Positions 20,557 to 28,658 of a stretch of DNA of 64,000 nt are shown in pieces; the first letter of the stretch is position 1, and the number at the start of each line of letters is the position of its first letter. A model generated the notes under the pieces. The model saw only the letters and a program-made list of their open reading frames with translations. It did not search any database and was not told the origin of the DNA. Source of the DNA: Thermococcus radiotolerans (GTDB taxonomy: Archaea; Methanobacteriota_B; Thermococci; Thermococcales; Thermococcaceae); assembly GCF_002214565.1 (NCBI RefSeq), contig NZ_CP015106.1, forward strand, positions 1,612,001-1,676,000, in the 5' to 3' direction. The position numbers and the translations under genes are program-made.

Positions 20557-20823
20557 ATGATACGAGAGCGCCTCTGCCGGGAATACCTGGAGGAAATCGA
20601 GCGCCTTGAACGCTCCATCAGGGAGCTGGAGGACGAGATAACGGAGCTCCGCATGCAGCTCAACCTGAAGGTGGACGAGGCCAACCGTCTGGCGATAGAG
20701 AACGCGAGTTTGAGGCACAAGCTGGAGATGCAGCGGCGCACCTACAATCGGATGGTCGAGCTGCTGAAGAAGATAAAATTCCCGATAATAATACTGAACG
20801 ATGAGGAGATCGACGAGGAGTGA
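20557..20823 (+). CDS. Small coiled-coil protein of unknown function
   Basis: 88 residues. Positions 8-70 show heptad spacing of Leu/Ile with charged flanks (LEEIERLERSIRELEDEITE), a long coiled coil, followed by KKIKFPIIIL and an acidic tail DEEIDEE. No family recognised. The ATG at 20557 comes six bases after box D of the guide RNA. An in-frame stop inside box C' rules out any start before 20536, and no ribosome binding site is visible in between, so it is either translated from an unusual leader that contains the sRNA or from a shorter transcript. Codon usage resembles real genes of the window. Confidence 0.65.
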   Translation: MIRERLCREYLEEIERLERSIRELEDEITELRMQLNLKVDEANRLAIENASLRHKLEMQRRTYNRMVELLKKIKFPIIILNDEEIDEE

Positions 20824-21181
20824 TACTCTTTTACCCACGTGTGTTCTTGATTGACACCACTGTAAATCGTTGAAGTAAATACAAAGTTTTGTCAGATTGA
20901 AAGTAACATTGTTCAGTAACACGGTTACGGTGTTGTTGTTTCTATAAGATTTCATAGGCATACATCATTTTTCGGCAAACTTTGTTATGTTTTCTACAAC
21001 ATTAACGTTTTCCTCGGCATGTAAGAACTTGAAAAAGGTTCGAATAGTTACAAGATACGCAAAGCTTAAATAACATGACAAATTAGTCTAGATAGCGTTA
21101 ACAATAACATGCCACAATCTGTTTTTGTATAATCCACTTGATTCAAATGTCTTCGATTGCATCTGTGGGGGTGTGTTTGGT
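20824..21181 (+). promoter_or_regulatory. Long AT-rich upstream region of the winged-helix regulator gene
   Basis: 358 bases without a gene. At 20903-20920 stands GTAACATTGTTCAGTAAC, two GTAAC units 13 bases apart, followed by GTTAC at 20924-20928 that forms an inverted repeat with the second unit. A further GTTAC lies at 21047-21051. The likely core promoter is AAAGCTTAAATAAC near 21059-21072, giving a leader of about 85 bases. I see no other structure or guide RNA in it. Confidence 0.5.
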
Positions 21182-21457
21182 ATGCGGCGGTCGAAAGTTG
21201 AGATAATAGCCGATATCCTCCGCTCCACCAACGGCACCGGTGCCACTAAAACCCAGATCGTCTACAGGGCCAACCTGAACTTCAAGCTTGCGACGGGATA
21301 CATCAGGTACCTTCTGAAGAAGGGCTATCTCGTGGAGGTCGTCGAAAACAACAGGAGGGTCTACAAAGCCACCGACAAGGGGCAGGCCTTCCTAAGGGAG
21401 TTCTTCACGATAGCCCGCGAGCTGGATGATATACTCAGTATAGAAAACGCCGTTTAG
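21182..21457 (+). CDS. Winged-helix transcriptional regulator of the TasA-like cluster
   Basis: 91 residues forming one winged helix-turn-helix of the archaeal type: RRSKVEIIADILRSTN as helix 1, ATKTQIVYRANLNFKLATGY as helix-turn-helix, LLKKGYLVEVVENNRRVYKA as the wing, and a C-terminal helix likely used for dimers. No ligand domain. ATG at 21182 is preceded by GGGGGTG. The gene stands 153 bases before the secreted-protein genes. The same 18-bp element occurs in both upstream regions, making autoregulation plus control of the cluster the natural reading. Confidence 0.8.
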   Translation: MRRSKVEIIADILRSTNGTGATKTQIVYRANLNFKLATGYIRYLLKKGYLVEVVENNRRVYKATDKGQAFLREFFTIARELDDILSIENAV

Positions 21458-21489
21458 GCTCCAATCAGTTCTCAAATCACCTGAACTCT

Positions 21490-21512
21490 GTTCCGTAACA
21501 TTGTTCCGTAAC
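21490..21512 (+). promoter_or_regulatory. Direct-repeat operator upstream of the first TasA-like gene
   Basis: GTTCCGTAAC occurs twice, at 21490-21499 and 21503-21512, with a 13-base period. The inner 18 bases, GTAACATTGTTCCGTAAC (21495-21512), match the element at 20903-20920 in 17 of 18 positions. It ends about 27 bases before the TATA box CTTAAATAC (near 21540), an activator-like position. Confidence 0.6.
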
Positions 21513-21539
21513 TTCACTCCGGAAAAGCGTTTCTTCTTG

Positions 21540-21603
21540 CTTAAATACTGGAAGGGCAATATTTACTAAGGGCCCTGGTACGAAGGGGGCCCTTCCGGAG
21601 GTG
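21540..21603 (+). promoter_or_regulatory. Core promoter and leader hairpin of the TasA-like operon
   Basis: TATA box CTTAAATAC near 21540-21548 predicts a start near 21568-21573. From 21568 the leader can fold AAGGGCCC (21568-21575) on GGGCCCTT (21587-21594), an 8-bp GC-rich stem with an 11-base loop, ending two bases before the ribosome binding site GGAGGTG (21597-21603). A 5'-terminal stem could protect the mRNA or limit ribosome access. Confidence 0.5.
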
Positions 21604-21610
21604 TTCGGAA

Positions 21611-22201
21611 ATGAAGATGTTGGCAAGTTTGGTTTTGGTAGGGATTGTTCTGTTTGGCATTGGAGCAGGAACCTGGGCGCAGTTCACCGACACCGAGACA
21701 AGTACTGACAACTACATTGCAGCTGGAACCCTTGATTTGGTAGTGGGTGGAGAGAACCCATTATCCACGAGCCTCAACTACACGGACGAGTTTGGCTATG
21801 TGTACCCAGGTTGGGAAGACTCTACTTGGTTCTACGTTAAAAACGATGGAAGTATAGACGGTAAGCTATACCTCGATATAAGTTATAGTGACTCACCAGG
21901 ATTGACCCCAGAGCCAGAGCAGGAATACTATGCCGAACATGGGGGTAGTGATGTAGGAGAACTCTCTCAATATCTCTATGTTGAGATATACTACAGCGAC
22001 GACACGAACTTTGATGCTTCCAAGCTCGTCTGGAATGGCTATGTTAGCGAATGGCCTGGAGAGAAGGAGCTTGGGGAGCTACCAGCAGGGGAGATTAGGT
22101 ACATCAAAGTTAAGGCTTCAATAGACAGCGACGTCGGGAACATAATCCAGGGAGACAGCCTTACCGTTAACGTCACCTTCACTCTAAAGCAGGACACTTG
22201 A
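21611..22201 (+). CDS. TasA/camelysin-like secreted protein with SipW-type signal peptide
   Basis: 196 residues. The N-terminus is a signal peptide (MKMLASLVLVGIVLFGIGAG) with probable cleavage after TWA, followed by QFTDTETSTDNYIAAGTLDL, the sequence typical of TasA, camelysin and other SipW-processed proteins. The rest is beta-rich (YLDISYSD, YVEIYYSDD, SLTVNVTFTL). TasA-like subunits form extracellular fibres by inserting their N-terminal strand into the next subunit; archaeal bundling pili use a relative. Here that function is inferred. GGAGGTG precedes the ATG. Codon use is clearly more AT-rich than in the flanking housekeeping genes. Followed after 32 bases by a paralogue. Confidence 0.82.
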   Translation: MKMLASLVLVGIVLFGIGAGTWAQFTDTETSTDNYIAAGTLDLVVGGENPLSTSLNYTDEFGYVYPGWEDSTWFYVKNDGSIDGKLYLDISYSDSPGLTPEPEQEYYAEHGGSDVGELSQYLYVEIYYSDDTNFDASKLVWNGYVSEWPGEKELGELPAGEIRYIKVKASIDSDVGNIIQGDSLTVNVTFTLKQDT

Positions 22202-22233
22202 TTCCATTTAGTTCTTTACAGGGGTGACCAGCG

Positions 22234-22935
22234 ATGCGGAGCATTGCAGTAACTTTCCTCCTCATCGGCCTGCTGGTTGCAGGGATGGGCTACGGTACAT
22301 GGGCAGTCTATCACGACGAAGAGACCAGTACGGGAAACTACGTGCAGGCTGGAACTCTTGACTTGGTATTGACTGATAATACATCCTCCGCTGATGGACA
22401 ATGGAACATTTGGGGGGGTTACCCAGGACAACCAGGATTGACTCAGGGAGATGGGGAAATACGTATCTACAACGTTGGAACCATTCCGGCAGGAAACGTC
22501 AGGATATGGTTCACCTTTGAGTGCCACGAGGACGACAATGGGAATCCAAACGATGGCTACAACCCTGGTCCTGAGTCTGACACGAATCTTACTGGGGTCG
22601 GATCGTGGCTCAAAGAAATAAAAGTTACTGAGATGAGATATAGTGAAAACAACGGCAGACCAAATATTAACATAGTGTATGACAATGGGAACTCTTGGGA
22701 CAGTACGTATATACAGGATTTAGACGGTGATGACAGAATAACACTTTACGACCTCTCCCTTCAGGAGATTACTGGGTTATATGCTCCATACCCTAACGGC
22801 AATCCCGATAGCAACTCCGGATATACAGCATTTGAAATGAGCTTTAGGATCATTGACACAGGATCAGAGCAGAACTATTGGCAGGGTGATGTCTGCATAA
22901 TGACAGTCCATGTGAAACTGGAGCAGGAAACATAA
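22234..22935 (+). CDS. TasA/camelysin-like secreted protein with a calcium-loop-like motif
   Basis: 233 residues, paralogous to the preceding gene: signal peptide MRSIAVTFLLIGLLVAGMGY, cleavage after TWA, then VYHDEETSTGNYVQAGTLDL. It is longer, with an Asn/Gly/Asp-rich middle (HEDDNGNPNDGYNPGPESD) and the segment DLDGDDRITLYDL, which matches one half of a dockerin or EF-hand-like calcium loop (Asp at positions 1, 3, 5 and 12). Two cysteines (FEC and GDVC) could form a disulfide. GGGGTGACC precedes the ATG. It may be a second or minor fibre subunit or an adhesin tip; which is not visible from sequence. AT-rich codon use like its neighbour. Confidence 0.8.
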   Translation: MRSIAVTFLLIGLLVAGMGYGTWAVYHDEETSTGNYVQAGTLDLVLTDNTSSADGQWNIWGGYPGQPGLTQGDGEIRIYNVGTIPAGNVRIWFTFECHEDDNGNPNDGYNPGPESDTNLTGVGSWLKEIKVTEMRYSENNGRPNINIVYDNGNSWDSTYIQDLDGDDRITLYDLSLQEITGLYAPYPNGNPDSNSGYTAFEMSFRIIDTGSEQNYWQGDVCIMTVHVKLEQET

Positions 22936-22972
22936 ACACACAAGAGGAAATAGTACACGAGGTCTGAGGCCG

Positions 22973-23311
22973 ATGAGGTCGCTCTCCATTATCTTTCTTT
23001 TTGTTCTCATGGGCTTCCTGCTCTACAGTTCCCTGATGATGGGGGCTAGTCAGAGCGCTCCGCTTGAGTCTCCCCTCGCGGGGGAGAATCGAAACCTGAT
23101 GAACGCGCAGGGGGCGAACTCAAGGCTCAGCATCCCGAACTTCACCGTGTCGAACTCCTCAAGGATAGTGGCGCTGGCCGAGCGTCTCACGGTGAAGGAA
23201 ATAAACTACGAAGAGATGCTCGGTGCGATAGAGCTCGCGGCAAAGCTGAGTCTCTTGGCGGTGGCACTTGCGATGTTCCTGTCCCTGGTCTCGACACTGG
23301 TGGTGAGATGA
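22973..23311 (+). CDS. Small membrane-anchored protein of the TasA-like cluster
   Basis: 112 residues: an N-terminal hydrophobic segment (about 4-24), a Ser/Asn-rich extracellular stretch with possible glycosylation sites (NFTVSNSSR), and a C-terminal helix (about 88-110, LAAKLSLLAVALAMFLSLVS). No family recognised. The placement between fibre-type genes and a third TasA-like gene, with one base to the next ATG, suggests an accessory or anchoring role; that is inference. The ATG follows GAGGTCTGAGG. Confidence 0.65.
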   Translation: MRSLSIIFLFVLMGFLLYSSLMMGASQSAPLESPLAGENRNLMNAQGANSRLSIPNFTVSNSSRIVALAERLTVKEINYEEMLGAIELAAKLSLLAVALAMFLSLVSTLVVR

Positions 23312-23312
23312 A

Positions 23313-23915
23313 ATGAGGAAAATCCTGCTCATCCCTCTCATCATTGCCGTCTTTTCTCTCTACGTTTCCCAGGCGTCTTTTTCCTATTTCTCCGATACCG
23401 AGACCATAACCGCTGAACTGGCCGCCGCGATCCCGCCCTCCAGCGTCACCGTCCTGTACGAAAACGCCACCCTCACCTTCTTCTGCCACGTTCCCTGCTG
23501 CCATCACTGCGGGGATTCTGGCGCGTCCGATTTGAACGGGGTTATCTCCACGGCCGAGAAAAGTCCCGAGAGCCTGGAGCACGCCCCGCAGTGTTTCAGG
23601 AAGGTGTGTAGCAAGGCCGTCCTCGACGGAATTTATATAAAGAACGATGGAAGGGACGTGGTTCTCGAGAAGGTCATCGTCAGGTGGTGGTGCGGCGGAA
23701 AGCTTAACTATCTGAAGATAGATACCAGAACGTTCGAGTCCAACTCCACGTCCCCCGCGGAGGTTGAAGTCGGGGTGACGCTGGGGGGCGGGTACCACAG
23801 CGTTGAGCTGGGCTTCGAATCAATAATCTCTCCCGTCTTTGAAATAACCTTCATCTTCGACGACCACGTTGAGGAGGTATACTTCATACCGTGCGTCAAG
23901 TTCGAGTGGGTGTAG
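23313..23915 (+). CDS. Cysteine-rich protein with SipW-type signal peptide
   Basis: 200 residues. Signal peptide MRKILLIPLIIAVFSLYVSQ followed by ASFSYFSDTETIT, the TasA/camelysin hallmark, but AGTLDL is missing and is replaced by AAIPPSSVTVLYEN. It then has eight cysteines, four of them in FFCHVPCCHHCGDSG, the others in QCFRKVC, RWWCGG and IPCVKF. Two disulfides or a metal site are possible. The second half is beta-rich (VVLEKVIVRW, VFEITFIFDD). The ATG lies one base after the stop of the preceding gene, and the signal peptidase gene starts three bases after its end. A cap or base subunit of the surface structure is one guess; the true role is unknown. Confidence 0.75.
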   Translation: MRKILLIPLIIAVFSLYVSQASFSYFSDTETITAELAAAIPPSSVTVLYENATLTFFCHVPCCHHCGDSGASDLNGVISTAEKSPESLEHAPQCFRKVCSKAVLDGIYIKNDGRDVVLEKVIVRWWCGGKLNYLKIDTRTFESNSTSPAEVEVGVTLGGGYHSVELGFESIISPVFEITFIFDDHVEEVYFIPCVKFEWV

Positions 23916-23918
23916 CGG

Positions 23919-24848
23919 ATGAGGGTAAAATACCTCGTGCTCCTAATCCTCCTTGCCCCAGCCCTCCTTCTCCTGCCCAGCCTGAGTAGGCTCGACCTCC
24001 TCGTGGTTCTCAGCGGGAGCATGCAGCCCCTCTTCAATCCCGGCGACATGGTTGTAATCGAGAGCGTGAACCCGGACTCGGTGACCGTTGGGGACGTCAT
24101 AGCCTTCCATCCCCCAAATGCTAAGGACGAGAAAACGCTGGTCACCCACAGGGTCGTTGAGGTGATAACTAACGGGAGCCGCAGGTACTTCCAGACCAAG
24201 GGCGACAACAACGAGGACCTCGATCCCTTTCTAGTGCCCTCAGAAAACGTCGTGGGGAAGGCGGTTTTCTCCCTACCATACCTCGGATACCTCACGAGGC
24301 ACAACCCGAACAGAACCGTCAAGCTTGCCGCGTATATCCTCCTCATAGTTATCCCCGGCCTCGTGGTGCTCTACGGTGAGCTGTCGTACCTGCGGAACTA
24401 CTCACCGAGAATCGAGAGGATGGAGGAGAGGCTGAAACGCTGGCGAGCTAGGACCGTCGAGGAGGTGCTTCCCCTGAGGGCCGCTGGTATATTCCTCATC
24501 TCACTGGTGGCGTTGACCCTGTTGTTTTACCCATCGCTTGAAAGAACCCCCGCGGGCATCGTTAACACCGGTGTGCTCCCGATCCTCCTCCTCAGAAACG
24601 ACGTGCCCGACTACGTCTACCTTTCTCCGGGAGAAACCTACGATGGAAACTACGAACTGGCTGTTAACTCGGCTCTCCCGGTGATGTGGCTCGTCCGTGC
24701 CTATGAGGTCAACCCTTTTATAGTTAAATCGCTAAACGTTATAATATCACTCCTGCTGACGCTCGTAACGTTTCCCCTGTGGGTCAAAGAGTTCCCGGAC
24801 ATAAAAAGCCGGGTAAGGAGGCGGCACCATGGAACTCTGGGAGTATAA
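23919..24848 (+). CDS. Archaeal signal peptidase I (SipW-like) with long C-terminal extension
   Basis: 309-residue membrane protease. After a first helix comes LSGSMQPLFNPGDMVVIE with the catalytic Ser at about 34, VTHRVVEV with His at about 77 in place of the bacterial Lys, as in ER and archaeal enzymes, and TKGDNNEDLD with the conserved Asp at about 96. Ordinary archaeal signal peptidases are about 150-180 residues; this one continues with three more hydrophobic segments and an outer loop. It is the likely dedicated peptidase for the SipW-type signal peptides encoded just upstream. Its 3' end overlaps the DUF5305 gene by 20 bases. Confidence 0.85.
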   Translation: MRVKYLVLLILLAPALLLLPSLSRLDLLVVLSGSMQPLFNPGDMVVIESVNPDSVTVGDVIAFHPPNAKDEKTLVTHRVVEVITNGSRRYFQTKGDNNEDLDPFLVPSENVVGKAVFSLPYLGYLTRHNPNRTVKLAAYILLIVIPGLVVLYGELSYLRNYSPRIERMEERLKRWRARTVEEVLPLRAAGIFLISLVALTLLFYPSLERTPAGIVNTGVLPILLLRNDVPDYVYLSPGETYDGNYELAVNSALPVMWLVRAYEVNPFIVKSLNVIISLLLTLVTFPLWVKEFPDIKSRVRRRHHGTLGV

Positions 24849-25863
24849 TCTGCTCTCCATGGTAAAAAGGCGCTGGATTCCTCTAACAGTAATCTTCCTG
24901 CTTCTGACGGCTGGTTTTGGCTACGCCTACGGCACGACCCCCACGACGGTCACCACGAAGGCCACCGTTGCAAAGACCCTGTACCGTTGGTCCGGCTGGA
25001 TTGGTGGAACGGGCGTTGTGAGCAGGCCGAACCAGATATGGGACGTTGGAAAAAGGGTGGAGCTTCCGATATACCCCGTTTCCATAATGCCTGTGGCGGA
25101 GATTGCGTTGGGCTTCAACGTGAGCGGAAAGGACGTTAACCTCGAGTTTGAGCGGGAGATGAGGGTCGTTTACTACATCTCCTACGACAAGGAGAGGGTG
25201 ATTGAGAAAACCTACCTCTCGGTCTCCAACTCCTCGACAGGAGGTTCCTTTACCGATCACCTGCTTTTGAACGTCAGCGACGTTTTCACCCGCATAGAGA
25301 TTGCCAGAAACATCCTGAAGCTTCCGAGGGAGAGCACCGGTGTTGAGATCATCGGAAAAATCAGGTACTCGGGCACGGTTGACGGAAAGCCGGTGAAGGG
25401 ATCTCAGGAGTTCAAGGGGAGCATAAGCTTCCCCTACGAGGGCTTCTATAAAATCGAGGGTGATTCGAGGAACGGTACCCAGACGTTCACAAAGACCGTT
25501 ACGGAGACCCGGGCTGTGAATCAGAGGAAGCGTGCCCTGTTCCTGTCACTGTCAGTACTCTTCGGAGTTCTCGCAGCCGCCACAGTCTTCATCGGCCGGA
25601 AGTTCGACCCCGGTGCGTACAGCGTGGAGGAGCTTACGGCCGAGCGGGAGCGGAAAAAGCTCGCCAAGTGGATAAGCTCCGGAAAGCTCCCCAAGAGCCT
25701 CCCCGCTAAGAGGATAGAGCTGGCCTCGCTTACCGACCTCGTTGAGGCGGCCATAGACATGAACAAGAGGGTCATCCACGACGCCGAAAAGGGCGTGTAC
25801 TTTTTCCTGAACGAGGGGGTGCTCTACTACTTCCAGGAAAAGACCTCCGAAGGGGAGAAATGA
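24829..25863 (+). CDS. DUF5305 membrane protein
   Basis: 344 residues: an N-terminal helix (about 16-34), an extracellular beta-rich domain (about 40-225) with several N-glycosylation sites, a second helix (about 237-256), and a cytoplasmic tail that ends with KGVYFFLNEGVLYYFQEK. This matches DUF5305 proteins, which in archaea often stand beside a signal peptidase. Function unknown; partner or substrate-presenting protein of the peptidase is plausible. The ATG follows GGAGGCGG inside the end of the peptidase gene, so translation is coupled. Last gene of the cluster; a T-run follows. Confidence 0.75.
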   Translation: MELWEYNLLSMVKRRWIPLTVIFLLLTAGFGYAYGTTPTTVTTKATVAKTLYRWSGWIGGTGVVSRPNQIWDVGKRVELPIYPVSIMPVAEIALGFNVSGKDVNLEFEREMRVVYYISYDKERVIEKTYLSVSNSSTGGSFTDHLLLNVSDVFTRIEIARNILKLPRESTGVEIIGKIRYSGTVDGKPVKGSQEFKGSISFPYEGFYKIEGDSRNGTQTFTKTVTETRAVNQRKRALFLSLSVLFGVLAAATVFIGRKFDPGAYSVEELTAERERKKLAKWISSGKLPKSLPAKRIELASLTDLVEAAIDMNKRVIHDAEKGVYFFLNEGVLYYFQEKTSEGEK

Positions 25864-25886: not shown

Positions 25887-25928
25887 GCATCACCGTAGGA
25901 TAGGCTTAGGAGTAAGAAGGTGAGGATT

Positions 25929-28658
25929 ATGAGCATGGACATGACGACCAGGATGTTTAAGGAGGAAGGATGGATTAGAAAGCAGTGCCCGAAGTGCGGG
26001 AAGTTCTTCTGGACCCTCGACCCGGACAGGGAGACCTGCGGCGACCCGCCCTGTGACGAGTACGCCTTCATAGGAAAGCCCGGAATACCGAAGAAGTACA
26101 CCCTCGAGGAGATGCGCGAGAAGTTCCTGAGCTTCTTCGAGAGACACGGCCACGGAAGGGTCAAGCGCTACCCGGTTCTGCCGCGCTGGAGAGATGACGT
26201 TCTCCTCGTTGGGGCGAGTATAATGGACTTCCAGCCGTGGGTCATAAGCGGCGAGGCCGACCCGCCGGCCAACCCGCTCACGATAAGCCAGCCCTCGATT
26301 CGCTTCACGGACATAGACAACGTTGGAATAACCGGCAGACACTTCACGATATTTGAAATGATGGCCCACCACGCCTTTAACTATCCTGGCAAGCCTATTT
26401 ACTGGATGGACGAGACGGTGGAGCTGGCCTTCGAGTTCTTCACCAAGGACCTCGGAATGAAAGGCGAGGACATAACCTTCAAGGAGAACCCATGGGCCGG
26501 TGGAGGAAACGCCGGACCGGCCTTTGAGGTGCTCTACCGCGGTCTCGAGGTGGCAACGCTCGTTTTCATGCAGTACAAGAAGGCCCCCGAGAACGCGGAC
26601 CCGAGCCAGGTCGTTGAGATTAAGGGCGACTACTACGTCCCGATGGAGACGAGGGTCGTAGACACCGGCTACGGCCTCGAGAGGCTCGTCTGGATGAGCC
26701 AGGGAACGCCGACGGCTTACGATGCCGTCCTCGGCTACGTCGTCGAGCCGCTGAAGAAGGCGGCAGGGATAGATAAAATCGACGAGCGCATCCTCATGGA
26801 GAACTCCCGCCTGGCGGGAATGTTTGACATCGAGGACATGGGCGACCTCAAGGTTCTCCGCCAGGAAGTCGCAAGGCGCGTTGGCATAAGCGTCGAGGAG
26901 CTGGAGAGGGCCGTCAGACCCTACGAGCTCATCTACGCGATAGCCGACCACACGAAGGCCCTGACCTTCATGCTCGCCGACGGCGTGATTCCCTCCAACG
27001 TTAAAGCCGGCTATCTGGCGAGGCTCCTCATAAGGAAGAGCATAAGGCACCTCCGCGAGCTCGGACTGGAGATGCCCTTGGCGGAGATAGTTGCCATGCA
27101 CATCAAGACCCTCTCCCCGACGTTCCCGGAGTTCAAGGAGATGGAGGAGGTAATCCTCGATATAGTCAACGTCGAGGAGAAGCGCTATCAGGAGACCCTC
27201 AGGCGCGGAAGCGACCTCGTGAAACGCGAGATTGCCAAGCTCAAGAAGTCCGGCAGGGACGAGATACCCCTCGAGAAGCTCATCCTGTTCTACGAGAGCC
27301 ACGGCCTAACCCCTGAGATAGTCGCGGAAGTCGCCAAGGGTGAGGGGATTAAGGTTCACATCCCGGACAACTTCTACACCCTCGTCGCCAAGGACGCCGA
27401 GAAGACCGCGAAGGAGGAGGCCGCCAAATACGTCGTTGACTTCGAGCTCGTCAAGGACCTCCCGGACACAAGGACGCTCTACTACGAAGACCCCTTCATG
27501 AAGGAGTTCGATGCCGAGGTTCTCAAGGTCATAGACGACTGGGTGGTCCTCAACCAGACTGCCTTCTACCCGGAGGGCGGCGGTCAACCCTGCGACCTCG
27601 GTGAGCTGAACGGAGTGAAGGTTCTGGACGTCCAGAAGGTCGGAAAGGTTATTCTCCACAGGGTGGAGAAGCCCGAGGCCTTCAAGGAGGGTCAGACCGT
27701 CCACGGGAAGATCGACTGGGACAGGAGAATCCAGCACATGCGCCACCACACCGGAACCCACGTCCTCATGGGGGCTCTGGTTAGGGTTCTCGGCAAGCAC
27801 GTCTGGCAGGCCGGTTCACAGCTCCACACCGACTGGGCCAGGCTTGATATAAGCCACTACAAGCGCATAAGCGAGGAGGAGCTCAGGGAAATCGAGCGCC
27901 TCGCCAACCGCGCCGTCATGGAGAACAGGAAGGTCACCTGGGAGTGGCTCCCGAGGACCGAGGCCGAGATGAAGTACGGCTTCAGGCTCTACCAGGGTGG
28001 AGTCGTCCCAGGAAGGGTCATCAGGGTTCTCAAGATCGAGGACTGGGACGTTCAGGCCTGCGGTGGAACGCACCTGCCCAACACAGGCCTAATAGGTCCG
28101 ATCAAGATTCTGAGAACCGAGCGCATACAGGACGGCGTTGAGAGGATAATCTTCGCCGCCGGAGAGGCCGCGGTTGACTGGATGCAGGAGACCGAGAGGC
28201 TCCTCAAGAGAACCGCCGAGACCTTCCGCGTCCCGCCCGAGAAGGTGCCGGAGACTGCCGAGAGGTTCTTCAACGAGTGGAAGGAGGCGAGGAAGGAGGT
28301 CGAGAAGCTCAGGAAGGAGCTGGCCAAGCTCCTCGTCTATGAGCTTGAGAGCGAGGCCGAGAAGATCGGTGAGGTTGAGTTCATCGGGGCCGTGGTAGAG
28401 GGCACCATGGACGACCTCCGTGAGGCCGCCAACAAGCTCAGGAAGGAGGACAGGGTCATCGTCCTCATCAGCAGGGAGGGCCACTTCGTCGTTGCGGTTG
28501 GTGACGGCATCGACCTCAAAGCTGGGGAGCTGGCGAAGATAATAACCTCCGTCGCCGGCGGTGGCGGTGGCGGAAGGAAGGAGCTCGCCCAGGGCAGGAT
28601 AAAGAACCCGCTCAAGGCCGAGGAAGCTATAGCCGAGTTGAAGAAGAGCCTCGGCTGA
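25929..28658 (+). CDS. alaS: Alanyl-tRNA synthetase
   Basis: 909-residue archaeal AlaRS. Order seen: N-terminal zinc-like [20 protein letters not shown]; class II catalytic core ([31 protein letters not shown] as motif 3); the editing domain with [12 protein letters not shown] and [10 protein letters not shown], whose His and Cys residues bind zinc and remove Ser or Gly mischarged on tRNA-Ala; and the C-terminal DHHA1 domain ending [16 protein letters not shown] at 25929 has GGTGA five bases upstream; other in-frame ATGs follow at 25935 and 25941. A stand-alone relative of its editing domain is encoded at 48.2 kb. Confidence 0.96.

Follow-up and report, generated by a model that had tools for sequence, protein, structure and literature searches.

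The window analysed here is a 64-kb stretch of Thermococcus radiotolerans (positions 1,612,001-1,676,000 of a 1.87 Mb genome that forms a single contig). Seven plus-strand open reading frames (ORFs) with operon-like spacing fill positions 21182-25863 of this window. They encode a winged helix-turn-helix protein (wHTH), two TasA/camelysin-like secreted proteins (referred to here as Tas1 and Tas2), a small membrane protein, a cysteine-rich secreted protein, a C-terminally extended SipW-like signal peptidase and a DUF5305 membrane protein (Table 1). The wHTH and Tas1 genes are separated by 153 bp and Tas2 is flanked by gaps of 32 and 37 bp. Downstream of these the spacing is 1-3 bp, and the last two genes, for the peptidase and DUF5305, overlap by 20 bp. 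The ORF coordinates bear out the first-pass annotation, which had described seven same-direction, tightly spaced genes here, and the identical gene order recurs in nine other genomes, which argues that the cluster is not a product of chance.

Table 1. Features of the cassette, its two borders and the gap between wHTH and Tas1, in window coordinates
Feature	Coordinates	Strand	Length	Description
Coiled-coil gene	20557..20823	+	88 aa	Left border of the cassette
wHTH	21182..21457	+	91 aa	Winged-helix DNA-binding protein, HTH_45/Sso10a-type
GTTCCGTAAC pair	21490..21512	+		Candidate operator between wHTH and Tas1; two copies 13 bp apart, ahead of the Tas1 TATA box
TATA box CTTAAATA	21540..21547	+		Predicted Tas1 promoter
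GC-rich hairpin	21569..21593	+		Located where the Tas1 mRNA is predicted to start
Tas1	21611..22201	+	196 aa	TasA/camelysin-like secreted protein
Tas2	22234..22935	+	233 aa	TasA-like paralogue of Tas1
Small membrane protein	22973..23311	+	112 aa	One hydrophobic segment at each terminus
Cysteine-rich protein	23313..23915	+	200 aa	Secreted, SipW-type signal peptide, 8 Cys
Signal peptidase	23919..24848	+	309 aa	SipW-like, S26B, C-terminally extended
DUF5305 protein	24829..25863	+	344 aa	Membrane protein
alaS	25920..28658	+		Encodes alanyl-tRNA synthetase; borders the cassette on the right

The wHTH protein matches Pfam PF14947 (HTH_45, E 1.2e-22) and NCBIfam Sso10a_fam (83 bits; cut-off 60), and its orthologue occupies the same slot in the nine other complete cassettes with 55-94% identity. 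The predicted winged-helix regulator is upheld as to its fold; the family is the HTH_45/Sso10a type and not the SinR type. The small protein, which matched no known family in the family search, had been described as anchored. It is indeed a membrane protein, with two hydrophobic segments, and a small protein with two transmembrane segments (72-117 aa) occupies this slot in every complete cassette.

Two TasA-type subunits and a cysteine-rich companion

Family and profile matches identify Tas1 as a TasA/camelysin homologue. It matches PF12389 (Peptidase_M73, camelysin/TasA) over nearly its whole length (E 7e-8), and a profile of 10 Tas1 orthologues retrieves the TasA fibre 8aur (E 8.9e-5) and 5of1 (E 1e-4) from the PDB, together with weak matches to AbpX (E 0.012-0.018; 9sj2, E 0.012). 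Tas2 matches PF12389 at its N-terminus (E 5e-5) and aligns with Tas1 over the full length in hhalign (99.7%). The top Foldseek PDB match of the Tas2 model, which is poor (predicted local distance difference test, pLDDT, 63), is also the TasA fibre 8aur (E 5.1e-5, TM-score 0.39), with AbpA (7ueg) at rank 13 (E 0.048 by fold). Both proteins carry a SipW-type signal peptide (TIGR04088), and the N-terminus past the predicted cleavage site retains the TasA-like pattern. The HExxH zinc motif is absent from the Tas1 and Tas2 translations, so the Pfam label ‘metallo-endopeptidase’ should not be read literally. These matches substantiate the core of the first-pass annotation, namely a TasA/SipW-like cluster in Thermococcales with two TasA/camelysin-like proteins bearing SipW-type signal peptides.

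The cysteine-rich protein scores 18.9 bits against TIGR04088 (cut-off 19) and 21.5 bits, above the cut-off, in a genome-scale search. Three of its cysteines (C58, C94 and C99) are invariant. The hhalign alignment with Tas1 spans 42 columns, which correspond to the signal peptide and about 10 further residues, and the beta-rich model (pLDDT 82) matches only generic beta-sandwich folds. This signal-peptide-only alignment and a model unlike TasA do not support a third TasA-type subunit; the cassette holds two, not three. What stands of the earlier ‘third SipW-type protein’ is its signal peptide, and the structure prediction that had been suggested as a check has a divided outcome, with the TasA fibre matched by the poor Tas2 model and not by that of the cysteine-rich protein. 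We propose that Tas1 is the major fibre subunit, Tas2 a second subunit and the cysteine-rich protein a minor or cap component.

An extended SipW-like peptidase next to DUF5305

The cassette peptidase matches Signal peptidase I (TIGR02228, E 2.8e-31). Against the SipW equivalog NF046067 it reaches E 5e-29 and 101 bits, under the cut-off of 190, and by this score it is SipW-like and not a SipW in the strict sense. Its nearest solved relatives are SEC11A/C. The S26B catalytic residues Ser34, His77 and Asp96, already named in the first-pass annotation, are invariant across 11 peptidase orthologues. The C-terminal extension of 165 residues contains three further transmembrane segments, at about 132-159, 180-198 and 264-287; the second and the third are separated by an external loop of about 65 residues. 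Comparison of the extension with half a TasA domain gave a profile score of only 0.3%, and this relationship was rejected. The genome encodes three signal peptidases besides that of the cassette, which exceeds the two short ones (open frames of 178 and 195 aa) in length. Three of the four SipW-type signal peptides found in the genome-scale search fall inside the cassette, where they are encoded together with the SipW-like peptidase.

The assignment of the last gene to DUF5305 is confirmed by PF17231 (E 2.8e-35, 122 bits; gathering threshold 29). The protein consists of a transmembrane segment (residues 17-35), an external domain of about 200 residues, a second transmembrane segment (235-257) and a conserved cytoplasmic tail. 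A PDB search with the cassette protein returned nothing similar, and no paper in the literature library that was searched names DUF5305.

A fixed site with patchy occupancy

The complete order wHTH, Tas1, Tas2, small membrane protein, cysteine-rich protein, peptidase, DUF5305 and alaS is present in 10 genomes, including this one; in G036, G056 and G059 the small and cysteine-rich proteins are short and were assigned partly by position and signal peptide. All complete cassettes lie between the small coiled-coil gene and alaS. In cassette-free genomes the coiled-coil gene adjoins alaS, at a distance of about 70-110 bp in most cases, which shows that the cassette has one fixed site. The coiled-coil protein is YabA-like by weak similarity, and its gene adjoins alaS in nearly all congeners. 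A profile of the peptidase extension finds matches in 11 of the 115 genomes of the phylum, and these are the cassette genomes only (the 10 complete ones and G090). When 55 same-genus genomes were searched for both, strong Tas1 matches and the long peptidase occurred in the same seven. The gene-order search in other Thermococcales that the first-pass annotation had put forward has found the peptidase and the subunits together in related genomes, so that neither of the two outcomes named there as refuting was obtained.

The eleventh cassette, in G090, is being dismantled. The wHTH, Tas1 and Tas2 genes are gone, an insertion of transposase-like ORFs lies between the cysteine-rich and peptidase genes, and the left flanking gene and the small protein form one fused reading frame. 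This locus (L041:591-7985) also contains, upstream, a 3′ partial alaS copy. A foreign alaS imported with the cassette was considered for this copy and rejected, as both copies are of the genus’s own type. Remnants occur in two further genomes: G021 retains 81 codons of DUF5305 at the cassette site (L114:2707-2934), and G083 has fragments of wHTH, Tas2 and DUF5305 near alaS, upstream of the coiled-coil gene (L118:4769-6710). Neither the cassette ORFs nor their family matches include an ATPase, a coupling protein, a platform protein, a toxin gene or an integrase.

The history of the cassette differs from that of its neighbour. In a concatenated peptidase/DUF5305 tree, a single clade of the nine same-genus cassettes is rejected (approximately unbiased (AU) test, p 2e-6). 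In the alaS tree G090 falls firmly within its own genus, and the grouping seen for the cassettes is rejected (p 2e-56). Among congeners whose AlaS is at least 90% identical, the peptidases are as low as 43-55% identical to that of this genome. The conflict between the two trees indicates that the cassette probably moved between genera or was replaced in place by old divergent alleles at its fixed site. Simple descent explains the data less well than such exchange or replacement; ancient paralogues that were lost differentially may be an alternative history.

The peptidase-DUF5305 pair recurs with other subunits

The genome contains a second peptidase-DUF5305 cluster (L050:2124-8092, C1:1822123-1828091), which encodes a wHTH protein (DUF7344), three secreted DUF1102 proteins, a 381-aa peptidase, a 481-aa cysteine-rich secreted protein with 16 Cys and a DUF5305 protein. 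The two DUF5305 proteins align over 312 columns in hhalign (99.2%), and the two peptidases have the same four-transmembrane layout; homology between their extensions was considered and is undetectable (4.6%). DUF1102 and Tas1 match at best marginally (hhalign, 92%). No solved relative of the DUF1102 proteins was found, and a literature search returned no paper on DUF1102. The claim that the regulator, the cysteine-rich protein and DUF5305 make the TasA version distinct was too strong, since the genome’s own DUF1102 cluster has the same kinds of parts.

The pairing was followed in 20 sampled loci of other Thermococcales. In all 20, the peptidase gene lies at most one gene upstream of DUF5305, and DUF1102 genes stand in front in 19. 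The DUF1102 cluster is kept through nearly all Thermococcales and is apparently undescribed. In five class-level relatives a peptidase of about 380 aa stands beside DUF5305, and in four of these a substrate candidate immediately precedes them. A more distant archaeon (L125) has DUF5305 together with a 633-aa peptidase and two proteins whose N-termini are SipW-like. A third type of cluster, in G082 (L126:5855-9578), comprises an ArsR-like wHTH, a single TasA-like protein, an extended peptidase and DUF5305; only its TasA-like gene and regulator remain in this genome (L001). Among such archaeal clusters, the pairing of a peptidase with a following DUF5305 gene is found repeatedly. The genome also encodes two orphan TasA-like secreted proteins (L051:4680-5426 and L052:5392-5988) with no peptidase or DUF5305 nearby, and the L052 type is found in most congeners.

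Proposed function and alternatives

We interpret the cassette, at a probability of about 0.7, as encoding a dedicated apparatus that exports and assembles a TasA-type surface fibre. Bacillus cereus TasA-like fibres and Clostridium perfringens BsaA polymers both require SipW (PMC4292775; PMC7395162), which is the basis for expecting that the SipW-like peptidase is needed here. TasA assembles by donor-strand exchange (PMC9674648), and from TasA we infer that Tas1 and Tas2 would polymerise. Tas1, Tas2 and the cysteine-rich protein would be exported by the general secretory (Sec) route, and the cassette peptidase would cut behind their SipW-type signal peptides (in Tas1 before QFTDTETS, as predicted) and free the subunits. 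The released N-terminal strand of one subunit could then complete the beta-sandwich of the next, as in TasA and archaeal bundling pili, and the resulting fibre would bind cells to each other or to surfaces. The peptidase extension, DUF5305 and the small two-transmembrane protein may form a membrane site for subunit release, initiation and anchoring. The cysteine-rich protein could act as a fibre cap or tip, and the Tas1 promoter would probably be regulated by the wHTH protein acting at the GTTCCGTAAC repeats.

Several observations weigh against this interpretation. Donor-strand exchange is not readable from sequence, and the fibre itself is something that we infer. The Tas2 model is of low confidence and its TM-scores are low, while the confident cysteine-rich model has no TasA among its structural matches. 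Between the TasA and DUF1102 clusters, the extensions of the peptidases agree in layout but show no detectable homology. Moreover, most congeners have orphan TasA-like proteins without the cassette peptidase, so that some of these proteins may need no more than the housekeeping signal peptidases.

An unlikely alternative is that the secreted proteins form a monomeric or sheet-like surface coat, for example as an S-layer companion or matrix protein, and that the peptidase merely helps strongly expressed substrates. The evidence does cover the fold family and not polymerisation, and the DUF1102 proteins of the parallel cluster, with no solved relative, are not known here as fibre formers. However, the solved relatives of Tas1 and Tas2 (TasA, AbpA/AbpX) are fibre proteins, and the N-terminus keeps the TasA-like pattern after the predicted cleavage site. 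The same structural relatives count against camelysin-type metalloproteases, a reading to which we give hardly any weight: the name of the Pfam family, Peptidase_M73, suggests it, but neither Tas1 nor Tas2 has the HExxH motif. The patchy distribution, the tree conflict, the fixed insertion site and the remnants would also suit a mobile island carrying a device for contact-dependent attachment or exchange, of DNA or vesicles for instance, in place of a biofilm matrix. The cassette lacks an ATPase, coupling protein, platform protein and toxin gene, as well as an integrase, and we regard such a device as improbable, somewhat more so than the coat.

The cassette resembles B. subtilis tapA-sipW-tasA and B. 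cereus sipW-tasA-bc_1280-calY in co-encoding TasA/camelysin subunits with SipW-type signal peptides and a SipW-like peptidase; two related subunits are shared with B. cereus, and a regulator is nearby as in the Bacillus loci. In contrast to Bacillus, no TapA is detected by homology in the cassette, the peptidase bears a long C-terminal membrane extension, the regulator is a small HTH_45 protein and not SinR, and DUF5305, small two-transmembrane and cysteine-rich proteins are added. In C. perfringens sipW-bsaABCRSD, a single operon likewise encodes a dedicated SipW, a polymer-forming secreted protein, additional secreted proteins and regulators, but the regulator there is a two-component system and DUF5305 is not reported. 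Archaeal TasA-like fibres are already known, as passages of PMC9674648 and PMC10151520 cite. The bundling pili of Pyrobaculum calidifontis (AbpA, 7ueg) and the AbpX fibres (9rhp, 9sj2) also consist of archaeal TasA-like subunits; AbpX is matched weakly by the Tas1 profile and AbpA weakly by the Tas2 model, both more weakly than bacterial TasA. The Thermococcales DUF1102 cluster (C1:1822-1828 kb) also resembles the cassette, with a wHTH, two to three secreted subunits, an extended peptidase, a cysteine-rich protein and DUF5305; its subunits are DUF1102 proteins, and almost the whole order has it, in contrast to the patchily distributed TasA cassette.

TasA-type fibres connect bacterial and archaeal biofilms. 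The extended peptidase and DUF5305 are a concrete candidate for the missing assembly site at which archaeal fibres would be released, initiated and anchored, and genetic tools in Thermococcus species make this idea testable. We tentatively advance, at somewhat below even odds, a broader proposal with two joined parts: that the pair is an undescribed archaeal fibre-assembly module serving unrelated or very distant subunits (TasA-like, DUF1102 and others), and that the TasA-type cassette is a fixed polymorphic locus beside alaS, gained, swapped and lost whole like bacterial surface-antigen loci. Such a fixed, patchy locus would provide a natural comparison between strains that have a fibre, strains that lack one and strains that are losing it.

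Putative regulation upstream of Tas1

The only two exact GTTCCGTAAC matches in the 64 kb both lie in the wHTH-Tas1 gap. A copy with one mismatch is located upstream of the wHTH gene (20911-20920); one-mismatch matches are no more frequent in the window than expected by chance. The repeats are kept in close orthologues, with related GTTAC/GTAAC elements in others, and a TTAAATA-type box is present in most aligned cassettes and a TTATAA-type box in three. The regulatory evidence is weak; the repeats are candidate operators, and the wHTH protein would probably act through them on the Tas1 promoter. The Tas1 ribosome-binding site (GGAGGTG, 21597-21603) follows just downstream of the predicted hairpin. 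The minimum free energy upstream of Tas1 (-50 to -9) is -16.4 kcal/mol, whereas 51 ORFs of the window average -6.4 (sd 3.7). The other cassettes tested have a stem-loop of different sequence in the same place, which hints at a possible role such as mRNA stability, but the individual z-scores are mostly modest (+0.3 to -3.7).

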